DNA from: Candidatus Marinarcus aquaticus
GTDB taxonomy: Bacteria > Campylobacterota > Campylobacteria > Campylobacterales > Arcobacteraceae
NCBI RefSeq assembly: GCF_004116335.1
Contig: NZ_PDKN01000007.1
Coordinates: forward strand, 62,001 to 126,000
DNA length: 64,000 nucleotides
Direction of reading: 5' to 3'
Under the pieces are notes generated by a model, which searched no databases, was not told the DNA's origin, and saw only the letters and a program-made list of their open reading frames with translations. The position numbers and the translations under genes were made by a program. Positions 23,239 through 31,252 of this stretch are shown here, one piece after another. Every line of letters begins with the position of its first letter. Within the stretch, counting starts at the first letter, position 1.

Positions 23239-24081
23239 TTACTCTACAATTTGGTGCAACTTACTGCATTGAGAAAGGTGTACGTCCCCTCCTGAAATAT
23301 CGTTGATGATGTCTTGATAAGAGTGGAAGTGTGCATTATATACATAAATAAAAACTTCATCTCCTTTTTTCAAAAAGTTGGTTTTCCCAAACTCGGTGTA
23401 TGCCGTCGCTCCTGCAGCGATAAGCAAACCTTTTTTACCTTCAATGTTTTGAATCAATGGACTTAACTCTTCAAGTGGTCCACAATCTTCTTGAGCATTG
23501 AATTTCTCTATCATCCATGTCTTTAACTGCTCAAAAAAGTATGAATAAGAGTTAACGGCACTGAGCGTCCCATAATCTTGTAAAATCCCATCTCGTCGTA
23601 CAAATGAAGCGATATGAAATTTGTCTAAAACACCTTTTTGTGTGAATTCATCAATCTTGATAAACTCAGATGAAATCCCTTTTGATGCTTTGCCCCAATT
23701 CTTTTTCGTACTCAACTTCTTATCATTTTGAATACGATTGGAACAATCATTAAACGCACTGAAGTATTGAGGAACAATGTCAAGCAACTTCCCCTCTTTA
23801 TATTTAAAATCACAAATCAAAGCAACTTCGGCTTCAACTTGAAGTTGTTCAATCTCATTGTGATTAATCGTGTTATTACAAATAGGAAATTCTCCTAAAA
23901 AACTGTTGTGATTTGGTATGTAAAACGGGAAAAGCCCTTTGGGTGCATCTTTCTCTTTTGTTTGAATTTGAGAAAAACCATCAGCCTCCCCTGCTTCACC
24001 TAAGTGATTTGCAAAGTTGCCAGCAACACCAAAACCTAAATAATCTTTTAAATCCTCTAATGAAAATGTATGTTTGTTCAT
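23239..24081 (-). CDS. DUF5718 family protein (fumarylacetoacetase-like fold)
   Basis: A 280-residue protein I associate with DUF5718, found mainly in Campylobacterota. It opens with DYLGFGVAGNFANHLGEAGE. Later segments such as VEAEVALICDF and AAGATAYTEFGK followed by LKKGDEVFIYVYN resemble the metal-binding core of the fumarylacetoacetate hydrolase superfamily. Function is not known. The downstream side (below 23239) faces the chemoreceptor promoter. Upstream lies a 31-codon gene on the same strand, possibly co-transcribed. Confidence 0.7.
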   Translation of the reverse strand: MNKHTFSLEDLKDYLGFGVAGNFANHLGEAGEADGFSQIQTKEKDAPKGLFPFYIPNHNSFLGEFPICNNTINHNEIEQLQVEAEVALICDFKYKEGKLLDIVPQYFSAFNDCSNRIQNDKKLSTKKNWGKASKGISSEFIKIDEFTQKGVLDKFHIASFVRRDGILQDYGTLSAVNSYSYFFEQLKTWMIEKFNAQEDCGPLEELSPLIQNIEGKKGLLIAAGATAYTEFGKTNFLKKGDEVFIYVYNAHFHSYQDIINDISGGDVHLSQCSKLHQIVE

Positions 24082-24387: not shown

Positions 24388-25371
24388 TTATGAGAAGAAT
24401 CGCTTCTCAACCTCATCGTGAAGTTTGGTTCCAGAGTATTTTGCTCTTTGTACTAACTCCCAGAAGTATCGGTATGTGGCTCGATCATGCAACTCTCCAT
24501 CATACTGAATAGGTCCCCACTCAGCATCTTGAGCTGCGACTAAAATATTTTGTGCTGCTTCTAGTTCAGTGAAGTCTGGTTTCATTGCATCTACAATGGC
24601 TTGAACTTGTGTTGGGTAAATTGACCACATTCTCATAAATCCAAACTCGTTTCGTGCACGTTCTGCGTCTTTGTATGTTTGATAAGGGTTTTTCAAATCA
24701 AGCGTTACGTTATGACAAGGAATCACATGGTTTTGAATCGCTGCTTGGCACACTTTTGCTTTTGCTGCACCAATCAATCGGTGTTCAAACTGACCCGGGC
24801 TTCTCATGTTGATTGCGGGAATGGCTCCTTGGTATCCTGAAACAAAGTCCATCAAACCAAAGTCAAGAACTTGTAACCAAGGCAATGTTGCAATCTTCTC
24901 TACATCTTGAAGTGCTCCATGTGTCTCAATCAAGATATGAATAGGAATCTCTCTTGTAATCCCTGAATCTTTGGCTACTTTTTGAATATACTCAATTTGC
25001 GTTTTAACATCTTCATATGATGTTGTTTTTGGCAATGTAATGTACGCTAACTTTTCACCAGCTCCAGGAACTAAGATGTCCACATCTTGTCTCCAATCAG
25101 GGTGTGAGAAGTCATGGATTCGTGTTCCAGCCATACCATAAGGGTTCTCTTGGGAGTTCACCACTCGTACAATCATCTGTGCGTGTTCAACCTCTTTTCC
25201 TGTTTCAGCGCCATCTTCACAATCGCATGTGATATCAAATACAGGTCCCAGTTTTCGTTGCATCTCGAACCCTTTTTTAATCAACTTTTCACTTCCTGCA
25301 AAGTGCTCGCATGTTGGAATAATTGGTAAACTTTTACCTGCTTCAAATAGTGCTTCATTTGGATGTGTCAT
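24388..25371 (-). CDS. mcl: Malyl-CoA / beta-methylmalyl-CoA lyase-like enzyme
   Basis: A 327-residue CitE-family TIM-barrel lyase that reversibly cleaves or joins a 3-hydroxyacyl-CoA such as malyl-CoA or beta-methylmalyl-CoA (glyoxylate plus acetyl- or propionyl-CoA). Conserved features are PTCEHFAGSEKLI near the start, the DCEDGA acidic motif, the catalytic Glu in LIETHGAL and the metal-binding Asp in FGLMDFVSG. The family resemblance is to the mcl genes that sit beside a MaoC-type mesaconyl-CoA hydratase in several proteobacteria, as here. It is the last gene of the operon and is followed by a good terminator. The exact substrate is inferred from family and neighbours. Confidence 0.85.
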   Translation of the reverse strand: MTHPNEALFEAGKSLPIIPTCEHFAGSEKLIKKGFEMQRKLGPVFDITCDCEDGAETGKEVEHAQMIVRVVNSQENPYGMAGTRIHDFSHPDWRQDVDILVPGAGEKLAYITLPKTTSYEDVKTQIEYIQKVAKDSGITREIPIHILIETHGALQDVEKIATLPWLQVLDFGLMDFVSGYQGAIPAINMRSPGQFEHRLIGAAKAKVCQAAIQNHVIPCHNVTLDLKNPYQTYKDAERARNEFGFMRMWSIYPTQVQAIVDAMKPDFTELEAAQNILVAAQDAEWGPIQYDGELHDRATYRYFWELVQRAKYSGTKLHDEVEKRFFS

Positions 25372-25392: not shown

Positions 25393-26448
25393 TTATTTTT
25401 TTGTTGGTATGACTACCGTGTAGTCTAAATCCAATACAACATTTGGAAGATACTTACCATCTTCACCTTTTGCTGATTCAATTGCTTGTGGCGTTTCATT
25501 TTTCAATGCCACTGTTCTTAGTCGTAATAACCCAATGTCACTGCGACCTTCAAGTTCAATTTTTTCTAACACTTCACTGTAGGCATAAATTGTATCGCCT
25601 GCATACGTTGGATTACAATGACTTCCTGCATTGATTGCATAAATCCATTGCGCATTTTGTAACCCGTTAAATGAGATCGTTCGTGCCATAGAGATAACAT
25701 GACCTCCATACATCAAACGCTCACCCATAGGAGTACTTTTCATCATATGGTCATTGAAGTGTACCTTTGCATTGTTTTGGTACAATTTCGTGGCCAATGT
25801 GTGATCAGAATCATCCACCGTGATTCCCTCAATATGATTGAGCCGTTCACCCACTTCATAATCTTCAAAAAAGAAACTTCCTCCTGTGGCATTGGTATCA
25901 ATATTTTTTGCTACAGGAATATTCACCTCTTTGGCAATCGGTGTGGTGGGTGCAAATGTTGGAACCTCATTGATACCACTCATTTCCCCTTTGTTTCGTT
26001 TGTGTACCATCACCCAACGCTTTAGGTTCAGAACTTCCAAACCATTTTGGTTGTACCCAATTGAGTGCACATACACCACCCCACTTTTACCATTTGAGTT
26101 CTCTTTTAAGCCAATGATTTGAGTTTCTAGTCGAACCGTATCTCCAACAAATACTGGGTTAGGAAAAGATACTTCGGCATACCCTAAATTGGCAATGGCA
26201 TTTAACGAAATATCTTGTACCGATTTTCCAAATGTCAAGTGAAACATCAACAAGTCATCTAAAGGCTTTTTTTCATACCCAAACTCTTGTGCCAAAACAT
26301 CGCTTGAATGAAGCGCAAACCGGCTCCCTGTAAAAGCGATGTACAAAGAGACATCCCCATCTGTAATGGTACGTGGAAGTGGGTGAATGATTTTTTGACC
26401 GATTTTAAAATCTTCAAAATAGTTGCCTGTATTAATTTTACTGCTCAT
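25393..26448 (-). CDS. mch: Mesaconyl-CoA hydratase (beta-methylmalyl-CoA dehydratase)-like, double hot-dog MaoC family
   Basis: A 351-residue protein with two hot-dog domains. The N-terminal half (NYFEDFKIGQKIIH, then VQDISLNAIANLGYAEVSFPNPV) and the C-terminal half (FFEDYEVGERLNH, then ERLMYGGHVISMART) each resemble MaoC hydratases. Characterised relatives interconvert mesaconyl-C1-CoA and beta-methylmalyl-CoA. With the neighbouring lyase this would link mesaconyl-CoA to glyoxylate and propionyl-CoA. I placed the start at ATG 26448, since AAGGAG at 26455-26460 is ideally spaced; an in-frame GTG at 26454 is too close to it. The gene overlaps neither neighbour but is only 9 bases after the ligase fusion. 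Confidence 0.86.
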   Translation of the reverse strand: MSSKINTGNYFEDFKIGQKIIHPLPRTITDGDVSLYIAFTGSRFALHSSDVLAQEFGYEKKPLDDLLMFHLTFGKSVQDISLNAIANLGYAEVSFPNPVFVGDTVRLETQIIGLKENSNGKSGVVYVHSIGYNQNGLEVLNLKRWVMVHKRNKGEMSGINEVPTFAPTTPIAKEVNIPVAKNIDTNATGGSFFFEDYEVGERLNHIEGITVDDSDHTLATKLYQNNAKVHFNDHMMKSTPMGERLMYGGHVISMARTISFNGLQNAQWIYAINAGSHCNPTYAGDTIYAYSEVLEKIELEGRSDIGLLRLRTVALKNETPQAIESAKGEDGKYLPNVVLDLDYTVVIPTKK

Positions 26449-26457
26449 ACTCACTCC

Positions 26458-28977
26458 TTAAAACGCCGTTTGCCCGATTTCTCTGTATTTATCATAGAGT
26501 GTAATAACTCGTTGTGCCCATTGAATACGTCGTTCATCGACCAAATCACATCCAAACTGAATAATCTCTTTACCCTCTTTAAGACCACTTTCATACGCTT
26601 CAATCATATCTCGTGCCTCTTGCACTTCCGCTTTTTTAGGCGTGAAGATATCATTGATATACTCCAACTGTGTTGGGTGCATCGCTGCTTTTCCATCACA
26701 TCCTAAACTGAACGCATCTTTAGAGCTGGCTTCACAACTGAACTCATCGGCAATATCAAAATGAGGTCCATCAATCACAACTTTATTATACGCTCGTGCC
26801 GCCAGACTGATTTGCGTCATATAGTGGAAAATTGCTTTTGGGTTGTTTTTGATGTTGATTTGCATCTTCTGCGCTAACGCATTTGAACCAATCACCACAC
26901 AACGTAACTTTTCACTCTCAGCACAAATTGATTGTGCATTTAACACCCCTAAAGGGGACTCAATCATTATCATAAACTCCAACTCTGGATTAATCTCATT
27001 GATAATGGCTTCTGCTTTTTGCACATCTTGTGCACTCTCTATATTTGAAAACAGTACCGCATCGATATCCAACTCTTTGATTAACGCAATGTCTTCATTG
27101 AGTGCTTCAACATTATCAAGTTTATTCACACGTATGACTCTCTCACTGCTTCCAAATGAGCTGTTCTCATCGAACACTTTTTTAAGCAATGCTCGAGCAC
27201 CAATTTTTTGCTCTTCTAAAATAGCTTCGAGGTCAAAAATCACCGCATCAGCTAACACACCTCGTGATTTTTGCACGTTTCTTTCATTGTATGCTGGAAC
27301 AAACAGCATTGAACGTCGTGCTCGGTAATTCTCTGTGGGTAAAAGCTCATGCGTGTTGCTTGCATTTAGCGTTTTAATCAACTCTTTTCGAAGCACTTTT
27401 CCATTTTTTGTTTTTGGATACTCTTGCAGTACATGAATCTGCTTTGGTGCTTTGTATTTTGCAAGATGCTCTTGTCCATACTTTAAGATGTCCTCTTCAT
27501 CTGCTAAGCTTATTTCACCATCAGCCAATACTGCAATAGCAACAATCGTTTTGTTTGCATCCACATCCAACCCAAGTGCTACACAATCTGCCACTTTTGG
27601 GTGGGTTTTAATCACTCTTTCAATCTCATGTGGAGATACTCTATATCCAAAAGTATTGATGATGTCATCTTTTCGTCCTAAGAACCAAATATATCCATCT
27701 TCATCTCGTTTGGCGTAATCTCCTGTAAAGAAGTAGCCGTTTCGTTTCACTTTTGCGGTATCCTCTTCTAAGTTCCAATACTCCAAGAACAACCCTGGGT
27801 CATCCACACTGATACAAATCATTCCTTCCTCTTCCACACCCACCTCTTCAAGTGTTTCAGGGTTCAATAACTTCACGGTGTGTCCTGGTTGAACAAAACC
27901 TGCTGAACCCGGTCGAATAGGTCTGTATTTTGAGTGTGAAATATAATAAGAGAACTCACTCATTCCAATCGCTTCAAAAATATCTTGTTTGAATCGCTCT
28001 TGCCAAAGCCCTACCATCTCAGATGATAAGTGCTCCCCTGCACTCATGCAGTGTCTCAAACTTGGACAATCTTCGATTGTAAAATCGGTCTTTTGAAGGA
28101 TTTGCCGATAAATCGTTGGTACGCCTATAAAAATCGTACATTGGTGTTTTTTAATCAACTCCACCCATGTTTTTGCATCGTTTTGCCCTTCATACGCAAT
28201 GACCGTATGCCCTTTATACAAGGGGTCCATCAACGCTGAACCTAAAACATACGTCCAGTTGAATTTTCCTGAGTGCATGATTCTATCGTTCTCTTTAAAA
28301 TCAAACCAAAACTCACTTGCTGGCTCTCGTCCTACCAATGACCTGTGAGAGTGCAACACTCCTTTAGGAAACCCAGTTGTACCAGACGTATAAACCAAAT
28401 ACGCTGGCTCACCTGATTTTGAGTTGTAGTGGTTTGGTTTTGCACTGGCTTTATTTAACACCTCATCAAGAGCATAAATATGCATCCCTTTTGGTTGAGC
28501 CATCCCATCCACGCTATCAATACCTGCAATGATGATGTGCTTTAAATCATCCACATTTTGCAAATAGGGCAACAAGTTGTCATACATTGAAGCCGACAGT
28601 ACAATCGCTTTTGCTTGAGAATCCGTAGCTAAGTACTTCACTTCTGAACCACTTAACAGTGTTGAAGTAGGTACGGCTACAATTCCTGATTTAATCGCTC
28701 CAAAAAATGCCGTTGGGTATGCCAATGAGTTTTTCAGACAAATCAAAACTCGGTCACGTACATCCAACCCAATCGTTCCTAAAAAGTTTGAGAAACGGTC
28801 TGATTTGTCAGAGAGCTCTTTATAGGTGATTTCAGCTGTACCTAAATCACTGTCTTCAATAATCATCGCCGTTGCACTCTCTTTTGGCGTGTTCAAATGT
28901 GCTGACGTACACGCCACCCCGATATTTAAAAATTCAGGTACGTTTATCTCAAATTGTGGGTATTCGTTCAATTTCAT
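26458..28977 (-). CDS. Fusion protein: acyl-CoA ligase (ANL) joined to a CitE-like lyase domain
   Basis: An 839-residue two-domain protein. Residues 1 to about 540 form an adenylate-forming acyl-CoA ligase: phosphate-binding motif VYTSGTTGFPKG near 193-204, YFFTGDYAKRDEDGYIWFLGRKDD, and the catalytic lysine region TKNGKVLRKE. It is closest in feel to the benzoate/aminobenzoate-CoA ligase group. Residues about 552-839 are CitE/HpcH-like (RRSMLFVPAYNE, then CDGKAAMHPTQL). In that part the Glu of the metal site is kept (Glu673), but the Asp expected 27 residues later is Ala700, and DLED reads DLEA (Ala585). The ligase should activate an organic acid for the hydratase and lyase downstream. The CitE part may be catalytically dead or use another mechanism. 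Confidence 0.88.
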   Translation of the reverse strand: MKLNEYPQFEINVPEFLNIGVACTSAHLNTPKESATAMIIEDSDLGTAEITYKELSDKSDRFSNFLGTIGLDVRDRVLICLKNSLAYPTAFFGAIKSGIVAVPTSTLLSGSEVKYLATDSQAKAIVLSASMYDNLLPYLQNVDDLKHIIIAGIDSVDGMAQPKGMHIYALDEVLNKASAKPNHYNSKSGEPAYLVYTSGTTGFPKGVLHSHRSLVGREPASEFWFDFKENDRIMHSGKFNWTYVLGSALMDPLYKGHTVIAYEGQNDAKTWVELIKKHQCTIFIGVPTIYRQILQKTDFTIEDCPSLRHCMSAGEHLSSEMVGLWQERFKQDIFEAIGMSEFSYYISHSKYRPIRPGSAGFVQPGHTVKLLNPETLEEVGVEEEGMICISVDDPGLFLEYWNLEEDTAKVKRNGYFFTGDYAKRDEDGYIWFLGRKDDIINTFGYRVSPHEIERVIKTHPKVADCVALGLDVDANKTIVAIAVLADGEISLADEEDILKYGQEHLAKYKAPKQIHVLQEYPKTKNGKVLRKELIKTLNASNTHELLPTENYRARRSMLFVPAYNERNVQKSRGVLADAVIFDLEAILEEQKIGARALLKKVFDENSSFGSSERVIRVNKLDNVEALNEDIALIKELDIDAVLFSNIESAQDVQKAEAIINEINPELEFMIMIESPLGVLNAQSICAESEKLRCVVIGSNALAQKMQINIKNNPKAIFHYMTQISLAARAYNKVVIDGPHFDIADEFSCEASSKDAFSLGCDGKAAMHPTQLEYINDIFTPKKAEVQEARDMIEAYESGLKEGKEIIQFGCDLVDERRIQWAQRVITLYDKYREIGQTAF

Positions 28978-28992
28978 AGTATCCCTTCCTTT

Positions 28993-30126
28993 TTAAATAA
29001 GACCGTAAGGCCAGTTCTCTTTAAATGTATGCAGTGGCATTTTATTCAATACTGTTAATGCAAACTTCTGATCATCAGCACTTAAACTTCTCAATGCATA
29101 CGCTCTTAAGATGTTTTGTAAAGACTTACCAAACATTGGTGGGTCCAACATCTCCTCTTTATATCGAATCGCTCCACTTAAAAGAGCATCCGCGTCCATC
29201 GCTGCTTTTAAGATATCGATATCTCGTGCAATCTCTTTGGGTGAAGGAGTAAACGCCACTTTACAAATATTAATGTGGTTTGGCGTAATTACTTGCTTCC
29301 CTGTAAGCCCCATGGCTGTCTCTCGTTTTGCGTGAGAGTATACATGTCGTGAAGCATCATCGCCATGCAGATCCAACCAACGTCGAATATCTTTTTTCTC
29401 TTGACACGAATCGGGCAATGAATTGGGCGTTAACAATACTTCAACTCCTCCAATGACGCCTCGTCCTTTAACTCTGGCTTCCATGGTCAACATATTAAAG
29501 AATGTCTCCAATTCATCAATCCACCCTTGAGGTGTGATTTTATACGCCATCGCTTTTGAGAAGTCATGAATACCAAATACAACATGTTGTACGGTTGAGT
29601 GACTCATTAATTTATCGGCAATTTGTAACGATTTTGGGTGCTCAATAATAGGCTGAATCGTCAAATTACTTCCAATAGAAACCAACCATGATGAAAGGTC
29701 TCGAATCTCTGCATCACCATAGACTTCTCCCGCTTTTGCTAAAACAATCACATCGATATATTTGTGAATCTTTTTTAACATTTTTAAATCCTCTTCGTAC
29801 TCGTCCGTTCTAAAAGGGTTAATACGAATAGCGATTTGAAAATCACGTTCTGGAAATTTTGGTAACTCCTCAATCAAGAGTTTTCTTGACATCTCTTTCA
29901 TTCGACATCCATCTTCTAAGTCAAATAATAGTGTATGTGCTTTTGTTTTATAAGCGTGTTTTTGTAATCGAAACTTTGCTTGTTCTAAACTCTCATATGT
30001 ACCATCAAGTGGATTAAACTTGATGGGAGGATAATATATTTGGATTCCAGGCCAGTATCCACCAAGTACTGGTGTTAAATCATCTTTTTCAGTCAATTTC
30101 GACAAATCTGCGAATGATGAAGTCAT
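28993..30126 (-). CDS. HpcH/HpaI aldolase / citrate lyase-type CoA-ester lyase
   Basis: A 377-residue CitE-superfamily enzyme, longer than ordinary CitE (about 290). The acidic motif FDLEDGCRMKEMSR, the substrate Arg in IAIRINPF, the catalytic Glu in PIIEHPKS and the metal Asp in VFGIHDFSK are all intact, so it should be active, unlike the CitE domain of the next gene. It leads a four-gene leftward operon (this gene, ligase-CitE fusion, hydratase, malyl-CoA lyase). It is transcribed divergently from an IclR regulator across a 400-base spacer. The ribosome binding site AGAAAGG is well placed. Substrate unknown; a citramalyl-, malyl- or related hydroxyacyl-CoA is plausible. Confidence 0.82.
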   Translation of the reverse strand: MTSSFADLSKLTEKDDLTPVLGGYWPGIQIYYPPIKFNPLDGTYESLEQAKFRLQKHAYKTKAHTLLFDLEDGCRMKEMSRKLLIEELPKFPERDFQIAIRINPFRTDEYEEDLKMLKKIHKYIDVIVLAKAGEVYGDAEIRDLSSWLVSIGSNLTIQPIIEHPKSLQIADKLMSHSTVQHVVFGIHDFSKAMAYKITPQGWIDELETFFNMLTMEARVKGRGVIGGVEVLLTPNSLPDSCQEKKDIRRWLDLHGDDASRHVYSHAKRETAMGLTGKQVITPNHINICKVAFTPSPKEIARDIDILKAAMDADALLSGAIRYKEEMLDPPMFGKSLQNILRAYALRSLSADDQKFALTVLNKMPLHTFKENWPYGLI

Positions 30127-30526: not shown

Positions 30527-31252
30527 TTGCAAAATCAAAACAAGTCATTGACCAAAGGCTTATCCATACTCAAAGAGATCATGCGCTCATCTAAACCTCT
30601 GACAGCCAACACCTTGTGTCAACGTTTGGATATTGATAAAAGCACAATGTCAAGACTGATTACCACACTCGTACACGAAGAGTTTATTGAGTATGTGGAG
30701 AACTCTAAAGAGATTGTTTTAAGTGACTTGATGCGTAATATTGTTTATAAAAAAGACCGTGATAGAATCATCGCACGCACACAAGGTTTACTCGATGAAA
30801 TTTTCTATCTCACACAAGAGTGTGCATACATTGGTGTTTTAGACAATCACTCGGTGTTGTATCTGAACCAAGTGGACAAATCAAAACGTGTTTTAAAAAC
30901 CAGAGACTCTGTGGGATTGCATGCCCCTTTACACACCAATGGGTTTGGTAAAATCTTGGTTGCATTTGGTGAAGTTGATATTGCTACCATTGCTTTAAAA
31001 AAATACACTCCTCACACCATTACCAATGAGCAAAAATTCACTGAAGAGATTGAATTGGTGCGTCAACGAGGGTATGCCATTGGGCATGAAGAGCATGAGT
31101 TTGGTCTGTGTTCATTGGCCGTACCTTACTTTGACAAACGAGGCGATTTTGTAGGAACAGTTGGGATTTCAGGTCTGTCAGTACGACTTCCTTTAGAGAC
31201 CCTACACGAGTATGGTCAAAAGATTTTTCAACTGGTGAACCCTACTCTTTAA
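30527..31252 (+). CDS. IclR family transcriptional regulator
   Basis: A 241-residue regulator with an N-terminal winged helix (TANTLCQRLDIDKSTMSRLITTLVHEEFIE, residues about 22-52) and the IclR effector domain. That domain includes HAPLHTNGFGKILVAF and RQRGYAIGHEEHEFGLCSLAVPYFD, the usual ligand-binding segment. The start is TTG at 30527, preceded by AAAGG. It is divergent from the CoA-lyase operon and most likely controls it in response to an operon intermediate such as glyoxylate or an organic acid; that is inference from position. It converges with a lipoprotein gene, overlapping its stop by 11 bases. Confidence 0.92.
   Translation: MQNQNKSLTKGLSILKEIMRSSKPLTANTLCQRLDIDKSTMSRLITTLVHEEFIEYVENSKEIVLSDLMRNIVYKKDRDRIIARTQGLLDEIFYLTQECAYIGVLDNHSVLYLNQVDKSKRVLKTRDSVGLHAPLHTNGFGKILVAFGEVDIATIALKKYTPHTITNEQKFTEEIELVRQRGYAIGHEEHEFGLCSLAVPYFDKRGDFVGTVGISGLSVRLPLETLHEYGQKIFQLVNPTL

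Follow-up and report, generated by a model that had tools for sequence, protein, structure and literature searches.

A CitE-like domain fused to an acyl-CoA ligase in Campylobacterales lacks the metal-ligand aspartate and is a candidate conserved pseudo-lyase

In the malyl-CoA lyase (MCL) of R. sphaeroides, Mg2+ is bound by Glu141 and Asp168, which lie 27 residues apart; Glu44 and Asp45 hold the waters of the metal, and Arg76 and Asp299, the latter contributed by the lid of the neighbouring subunit, are catalytic (PMC3832036). The metal-binding Glu/Asp pair and the two second-shell acids of the LED motif are described as absolutely conserved across the superfamily, malate synthases included; Arg76 and Asp299 are conserved as well, save for a Glu in the thioesterase group, and the characterised members all need Mg or Mn (PMC3832036). 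The window analysed here, a stretch of 64,000 nucleotides from Candidatus Marinarcus aquaticus (contig NZ_PDKN01000007.1, positions 62,001 to 126,000), encodes an AMP-forming acyl-CoA ligase fused to a CitE-like barrel in which a first-pass annotation, made from the sequence letters, found the metal-ligand Asp to be missing. This raises the question of what a CitE barrel attached to a ligase does without its metal site.

Pfam places AMP-binding at residues 40-401 of the fusion, AMP-binding_C at 451-527 and HpcH_HpaI at 555-768, all above cut-off (Table 1). The ligase part has the domain and the lysine expected of the ANL superfamily; its SGTTG..PKG and NGK motifs are intact, and Lys527 of the NGK motif is kept in 69 of 69 fusions. 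Its closest solved relatives are 4-hydroxybutyrate- and benzoate-CoA ligases; as to the substrate, the 25 best NCBIfam matches listed include no equivalog above its cut-off. The barrel scored 100.9 bits against PF03328 (cut-off 25) and matched Mcl, CLYBL and RipC in a phmmer search of PDB sequences (E 3e-26). A Foldseek search ranked malyl-CoA lyases at the top, using a barrel model of modest quality (pLDDT 67, from a four-sequence alignment) that served for fold identity and rough strand positions only. A full-length AlphaFold model (pLDDT 35, two-sequence alignment) was not used.

Table 1. Coordinates, in the window, of the fusion gene, its parts and key residues, and the neighbouring genes
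Feature	Position	Strand	Basis or remark
Fusion gene, AMP-forming acyl-CoA ligase plus CitE-like barrel, 839 aa	26458..28977	-	start ATG at 28977, stop at 26458; full-length homologues in the family
Ligase part, residues 1-540	27358..28977	-	Pfam AMP-binding and AMP-binding_C
CitE/HpcH-like TIM barrel plus lid, residues 551-839	26461..27327	-	PF03328, PDB sequence matches, Foldseek
Glu673 codon, retained Mg-ligand Glu (Glu141 of MCL)	26959..26961	-	Glu/Asp in all fusions
Ala700 codon GCG, site of the missing Mg-ligand Asp (Asp168 of MCL)	26878..26880	-	0/77 fusions acidic
Glu584-Ala585 codons, LED motif minus its Asp (Asp45 of MCL)	27223..27228	-	alignment DLE-A versus DLEDA
Arg616 codon (Arg76 of MCL)	27130..27132	-	Arg 70, Lys 6 of 76
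Lid Asp814 codon (Asp299 of MCL)	26536..26538	-	kept 76/76
Clade-specific segment P738..C748 (PHFDIADEFSC), after strand 7	26734..26766	-	invariants in 43 fusions
CitE-like lyase, 377 aa, catalytic set intact	28993..30126	-	Pfam and residue check
MaoC-type hydratase, 353 aa (RipB/Ich- and mesaconyl-CoA-hydratase-like)	25393..26454	-	
Mcl-like lyase, 327 aa, catalytic set intact	24388..25371	-	Pfam and residue check
IclR-family regulator, divergent, probable operon regulator	30527..31252	+	profile matches; syntenic in many relatives

Alignment with solved CitE/Mcl enzymes by phmmer and MAFFT confirmed that the metal Glu is present as Glu673 and that the residue exactly 27 positions later, Ala700, falls on the metal-ligand Asp of Mcl and CLYBL. 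Position 673 is Glu in 69 and Asp in 7 of 76 fusions. The first-pass annotation had further read the acidic motif DLED as DLEA. The Asp is absent, as claimed, but the region is better seen as carrying a one-residue deletion (DLE-AILEEQK versus DLEDAVAPDDK); Glu584 is kept here and mostly kept in the other fusions, and no acid is inserted at the deletion in any of 69. Set against the CitE-like/malyl-CoA lyase family, the domain thus shows HpcH/HpaI homology, the metal Glu, the Arg and the lid Asp, and lacks the metal Asp and one of the two second-shell acids. From this residue set we infer that the fused barrel is no longer able to bind Mg. Without the Asp ligand, Mg-dependent cleavage is not expected in the CitE family, and the domain is probably unable to perform Mg-dependent Claisen/aldol cleavage.

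The absence of the Asp is a property of the whole fused clade. Among 77 distinct C-terminal domains (76 plus that of locus L101, which adds one Lys) from two Campylobacterales families, position 700 is Lys in 56, Asn in 9, Thr in 7, Ser in 2, Arg in 2 and Ala in 1. None has Asp or Glu (0/77), and the search for homologous fusions that keep the Asp, which would have made this a local change, found none. The matching site is Asp in all 30 stand-alone CitE-like proteins compared, which come from Campylobacterota and plasmids and include both paralogues in the window. Because 0/77 fusions stand against 30/30 stand-alone proteins, neither chance nor a local mutation accounts for the pattern. Local mutation or sequencing error is ruled out by the Asp loss in 77 distinct fusions, and so is an alignment slip hiding an acid at 699-701, as both flanking residues, Asn699 and Leu701, never vary and the Asp aligns without ambiguity. 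With regard to the replacing residue, the Lys found at position 700 in about 72% of the fusions lies beside the retained Glu/Asp, and a salt bridge may take the place of the metal.

Of 104 genomes from the window's family, 79 carry a full-length fusion (66 of 90 on a first look); a second family in this order has 6 positives among 44 genomes. The CitE part lies within an open frame of 840-881 aa in all positive genomes but G496, and these 79/104 and 6/44 positive genomes contain no unfused version of the domain, save a partial match in G496 (202-aa frame). A scan of genome contigs with exact peptide patterns, which reach close relatives only, returned a single locus. Beyond Campylobacterota, where the distribution was sampled non-exhaustively, plasmid searches turned up ligase-only matches, or the ligase and the lyase as two genes, and no fusion.

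The sampled fusions form one clade (support 100/100) on a long stem branch (1.32), and this clade groups (95/80) with stand-alone CitE-like proteins that carry a GxNDL motif, keep the metal Asp and have a lid Glu. A single loss of the Asp in the common ancestor of the fusions would explain these data. In the tree, copies from the second family lie nearer to the window's subclade than do the remaining copies from the window's own family, which suggests lateral transfer. The operon was seen in 6 of 44 genomes of the second family (L059-L062, L123-L128), and its neighbours were read in four.

Has the domain been left to decay? Of 11 close pairs, ten gave a dN/dS of 0.04-0.23 for the CitE domain, and one with almost no change gave zero; for the ligase the values were 0.04-0.13. 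No stop codon was reported in any fusion, and dN/dS far below 1 together with intact frames rules out a decaying pseudogene. The CitE domain does evolve faster than the ligase: in examples of distant relatives compared with the window, identity is 59-67% for the CitE domain and 78-82% for the ligase.

Conservation within the barrel is highest at the catalytic face, GK..HP.Q included: 30 of its 77 positions are invariant versus 43 of 206 elsewhere (Fisher p=0.003), with strand limits that are approximate, being taken from the pLDDT 67 model. Across 43 fusions, 77 positions are invariant. The seven nearest stand-alone relatives share 25 of these, among them GK, HP.Q and GxNxL; a further 27, including P738, E745, F746 and C748, occur in none of the seven. 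The ancestral pocket was thus partly retained and partly rebuilt. In the segment after strand 7, Glu745 and Cys748 are invariant in 76 of 76 fusions; H739, invariant in the 43, is Tyr in 6 of the larger sets (69 and 76), and P738 is Ala in L101. The GxNxL loop (GSN-Ala700 here) is kept in the fusions. In Rv2498c, backbone NH groups of the equivalent loop hold the substrate carboxylate (PMC6689899), and binding of a carboxylate and of CoA could therefore outlive the metal.

We also considered what the neighbouring genes supply. The claim that both adjacent lyases keep the Glu and the Asp was borne out in 34 of 34 copies, which possess the four other catalytic residues as well, six out of six in both proteins; lyase activity would therefore be supplied outside the fused domain. 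The order CitE (377 aa), fusion, MaoC hydratase, Mcl (327 aa) is kept in 33 of 33 loci examined; a divergent IclR gene and a DUF5718 gene are often present, and a class I fumarase in many loci. The IclR-family regulator is weakly BhcR-like (119 bits versus a cut-off of 350) and lies beside the operon in many relatives, being missing in others. The DUF5718 gene (window 23239-24081, minus strand) stays with the operon across most of the family and is possibly part of the pathway. A class I fumarase gene directly follows that of the 327-aa lyase at L040:13601-15091 and in at least ten other loci; in the window's genome the only fumarase lies outside the window, elsewhere in the genome. Class I fumarases can work as mesaconase (PMC4682846), and the downstream enzyme may serve the pathway in this way. 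In the window's genome, the one genome checked, no malate synthase was found, and the isocitrate-lyase family is represented by only one short, PrpB-sized protein.

On these grounds we lean, with modest confidence, towards the view that the fused barrel is a conserved pseudo-lyase, which would still bind CoA esters and link the ligase to the real lyases of the pathway. This proposal joins the observed clade-wide loss of the metal site, purifying selection, pocket conservation and operon partners to a mechanism whose substrate, binding, oligomeric state, and channelling or regulation would be as follows. The Mg2+ site would have been lost in the ancestor of all known fusions, through replacement of the Asp by a non-acid and deletion of the second-shell Asp, with the fold, the pocket face, the CoA-ester-binding motifs and the lid retained. 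The N-terminal ligase would join CoA to a C4/C5 dicarboxylate, most likely mesaconate or citramalate. Assembled through the lid-swapping trimer surface, the barrel would bind the ligase's thioester, or a CoA ester of the pathway, without turnover; the bound ester would then be passed to the hydratase and the two intact lyases, or ligase activity would be adjusted to the ester.

Two ideas of the first-pass annotation bear on this proposal and fared differently. That of a dead lyase still binding CoA esters finds qualified support, as judged from residue conservation: the Asp is missing in every fusion, and the pocket, GK..HP.Q included, is the most conserved part. That of a thioesterase-like variant has become weaker, since the known malyl-CoA thioesterase needs a divalent metal and has the Glu/Asp pair, and a lid Glu is said to mark its group (PMC3832036). 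The fused domain lacks that pair and has instead the lyase-type lid Asp in 76 of 76 fusions, and the stand-alone relatives that do have the lid Glu keep the metal Asp.

Some features count against a pseudo-lyase. The retention of the lid Asp (76/76) and of Arg616 (Arg or Lys) exceeds what a binding module needs, and the new invariants, such as Glu745 and Cys748, could signal a new activity. The barrel might accordingly have been retooled as a metal-independent enzyme that, for instance, hydrolyses the thioester made by the ligase, isomerises it or transfers its acyl group, using clade-specific residues such as Cys748 and Glu745. We regard this as unlikely, albeit worth serious attention, given that 27 of the 77 invariants are clade-specific, with several in the loop that follows strand 7, that Glu745 and Cys748 occur in 76 of 76 fusions and that Lys replaces the metal-ligand Asp in 55 of 76. 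To our knowledge, however, such an enzyme is without precedent in the CitE family; His739 is Tyr in six fusions and Pro738 is Ala in L101, position 700 itself varies freely, and so long a stem branch should bring some clade-specific residues even if no new chemistry arose. The more specific version, in which the barrel is a metal-free enzyme of a type new to the CitE/malate-synthase superfamily and acts on the CoA product of the ligase by means of Glu745, Cys748 and often Lys700, seems to us distinctly unlikely.

The remaining explanations give the barrel a structural or an ancestral role. Each active site of an MCL is completed by the lid of an adjacent subunit, which brings in the catalytic Asp (PMC3832036). 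In mixed trimers, the fused domain might likewise lend its invariant Asp814 to the active site of an intact operon lyase and dock the ligase there. All the partners are encoded together in one strongly conserved operon, yet we find this improbable: in 34 of 34 copies the two lyases already possess a lid Asp, their identity to the fused domain is only about 20%, which is far for mixed oligomers, and other parts of the domain are more conserved than the lid. CitE-like barrels are reported to be trimers or hexamers (PMC3832036), and a barrel that merely trimerises the ligase, its pocket being irrelevant, is conceivable; yet a pocket face that is better conserved than the remaining domain is the opposite of what a scaffold predicts, and we consider this very improbable. 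Also very improbable, finally, is a metal-dependent lyase with an altered site built from Glu673 and Glu584 or water. Glu673 and, mostly, Glu584 and Arg616 are retained, and the A. butzleri homologue AB1918 has been listed among possible malyl-CoA lyases (PMC2147049), but the second metal ligand is missing in 77 of 77 fusions, the second-shell Asp is deleted, and the frequent Lys at position 700 would repel a metal.

A CitE barrel has here outlived the loss of an "absolutely conserved" metal site, fused to a ligase and under selection. The fusions therefore offer a natural test of what such a barrel can do without metal, whether it holds CoA esters, passes them on or senses them. They also bear on the links among glyoxylate, propionyl-CoA, pyruvate and acetyl-CoA in these Campylobacterota.

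By sequence and fold searches, the best solved relatives of the fused domain are the malyl-CoA lyases of R. sphaeroides and M. extorquens (4L9Y, 5UGR). The domain has counterparts of their Arg76, Glu141 and lid Asp299; it differs in the replacement of Asp168, the deletion of Asp45 and the attached ligase. Human CLYBL is metal-dependent. Its barrel (5VXC) is homologous, but it stands alone, unfused, and keeps the Asp. The malyl-CoA thioesterase-like CitE-like proteins, for example the Ruegeria TM1040 CoA ester lyase encoded near MaoC and sdh, share the GxNxL motif and group with the fusions in the tree, whereas they have the metal Asp and a lid Glu where the fusions have no metal Asp and a lid Asp. 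A likeness to the itaconate enzymes RipC/Ccl and RipB/Ich is seen in NCBIfam for the CitE domain and the neighbouring hydratase, respectively, with scores far below the equivalog cut-offs (RipC 120/375 bits, RipB 124/340 bits); a ligase is found in the operon instead of a CoA transferase (RipA), none of which was seen there.

The closest known system is that of A. butzleri, and we found no report on this fusion beyond PMC2147049. As the available excerpts of that genome paper have it, the fusion AB1918 (cluster ab1917-ab1921) was put forward in 2007 as a possible malyl-CoA lyase/mesaconyl-CoA synthetase, one of three candidate malyl-CoA lyases, and the cluster was proposed to interconvert glyoxylate plus propionyl-CoA and pyruvate plus acetyl-CoA via mesaconyl-CoA and citramalate. 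The same excerpts give a ligase domain at 50-550, a CitE domain at 550-825 and the order CitE, fusion, hydratase, CitE, fumarase, which match those of the window, except that the fumarase is part of the A. butzleri cluster and here lies outside the window; the missing metal site is not mentioned in them. On the residues present, the two other A. butzleri candidates are compatible with a role as lyases, and our data argue against the fusion as a malyl-CoA lyase.
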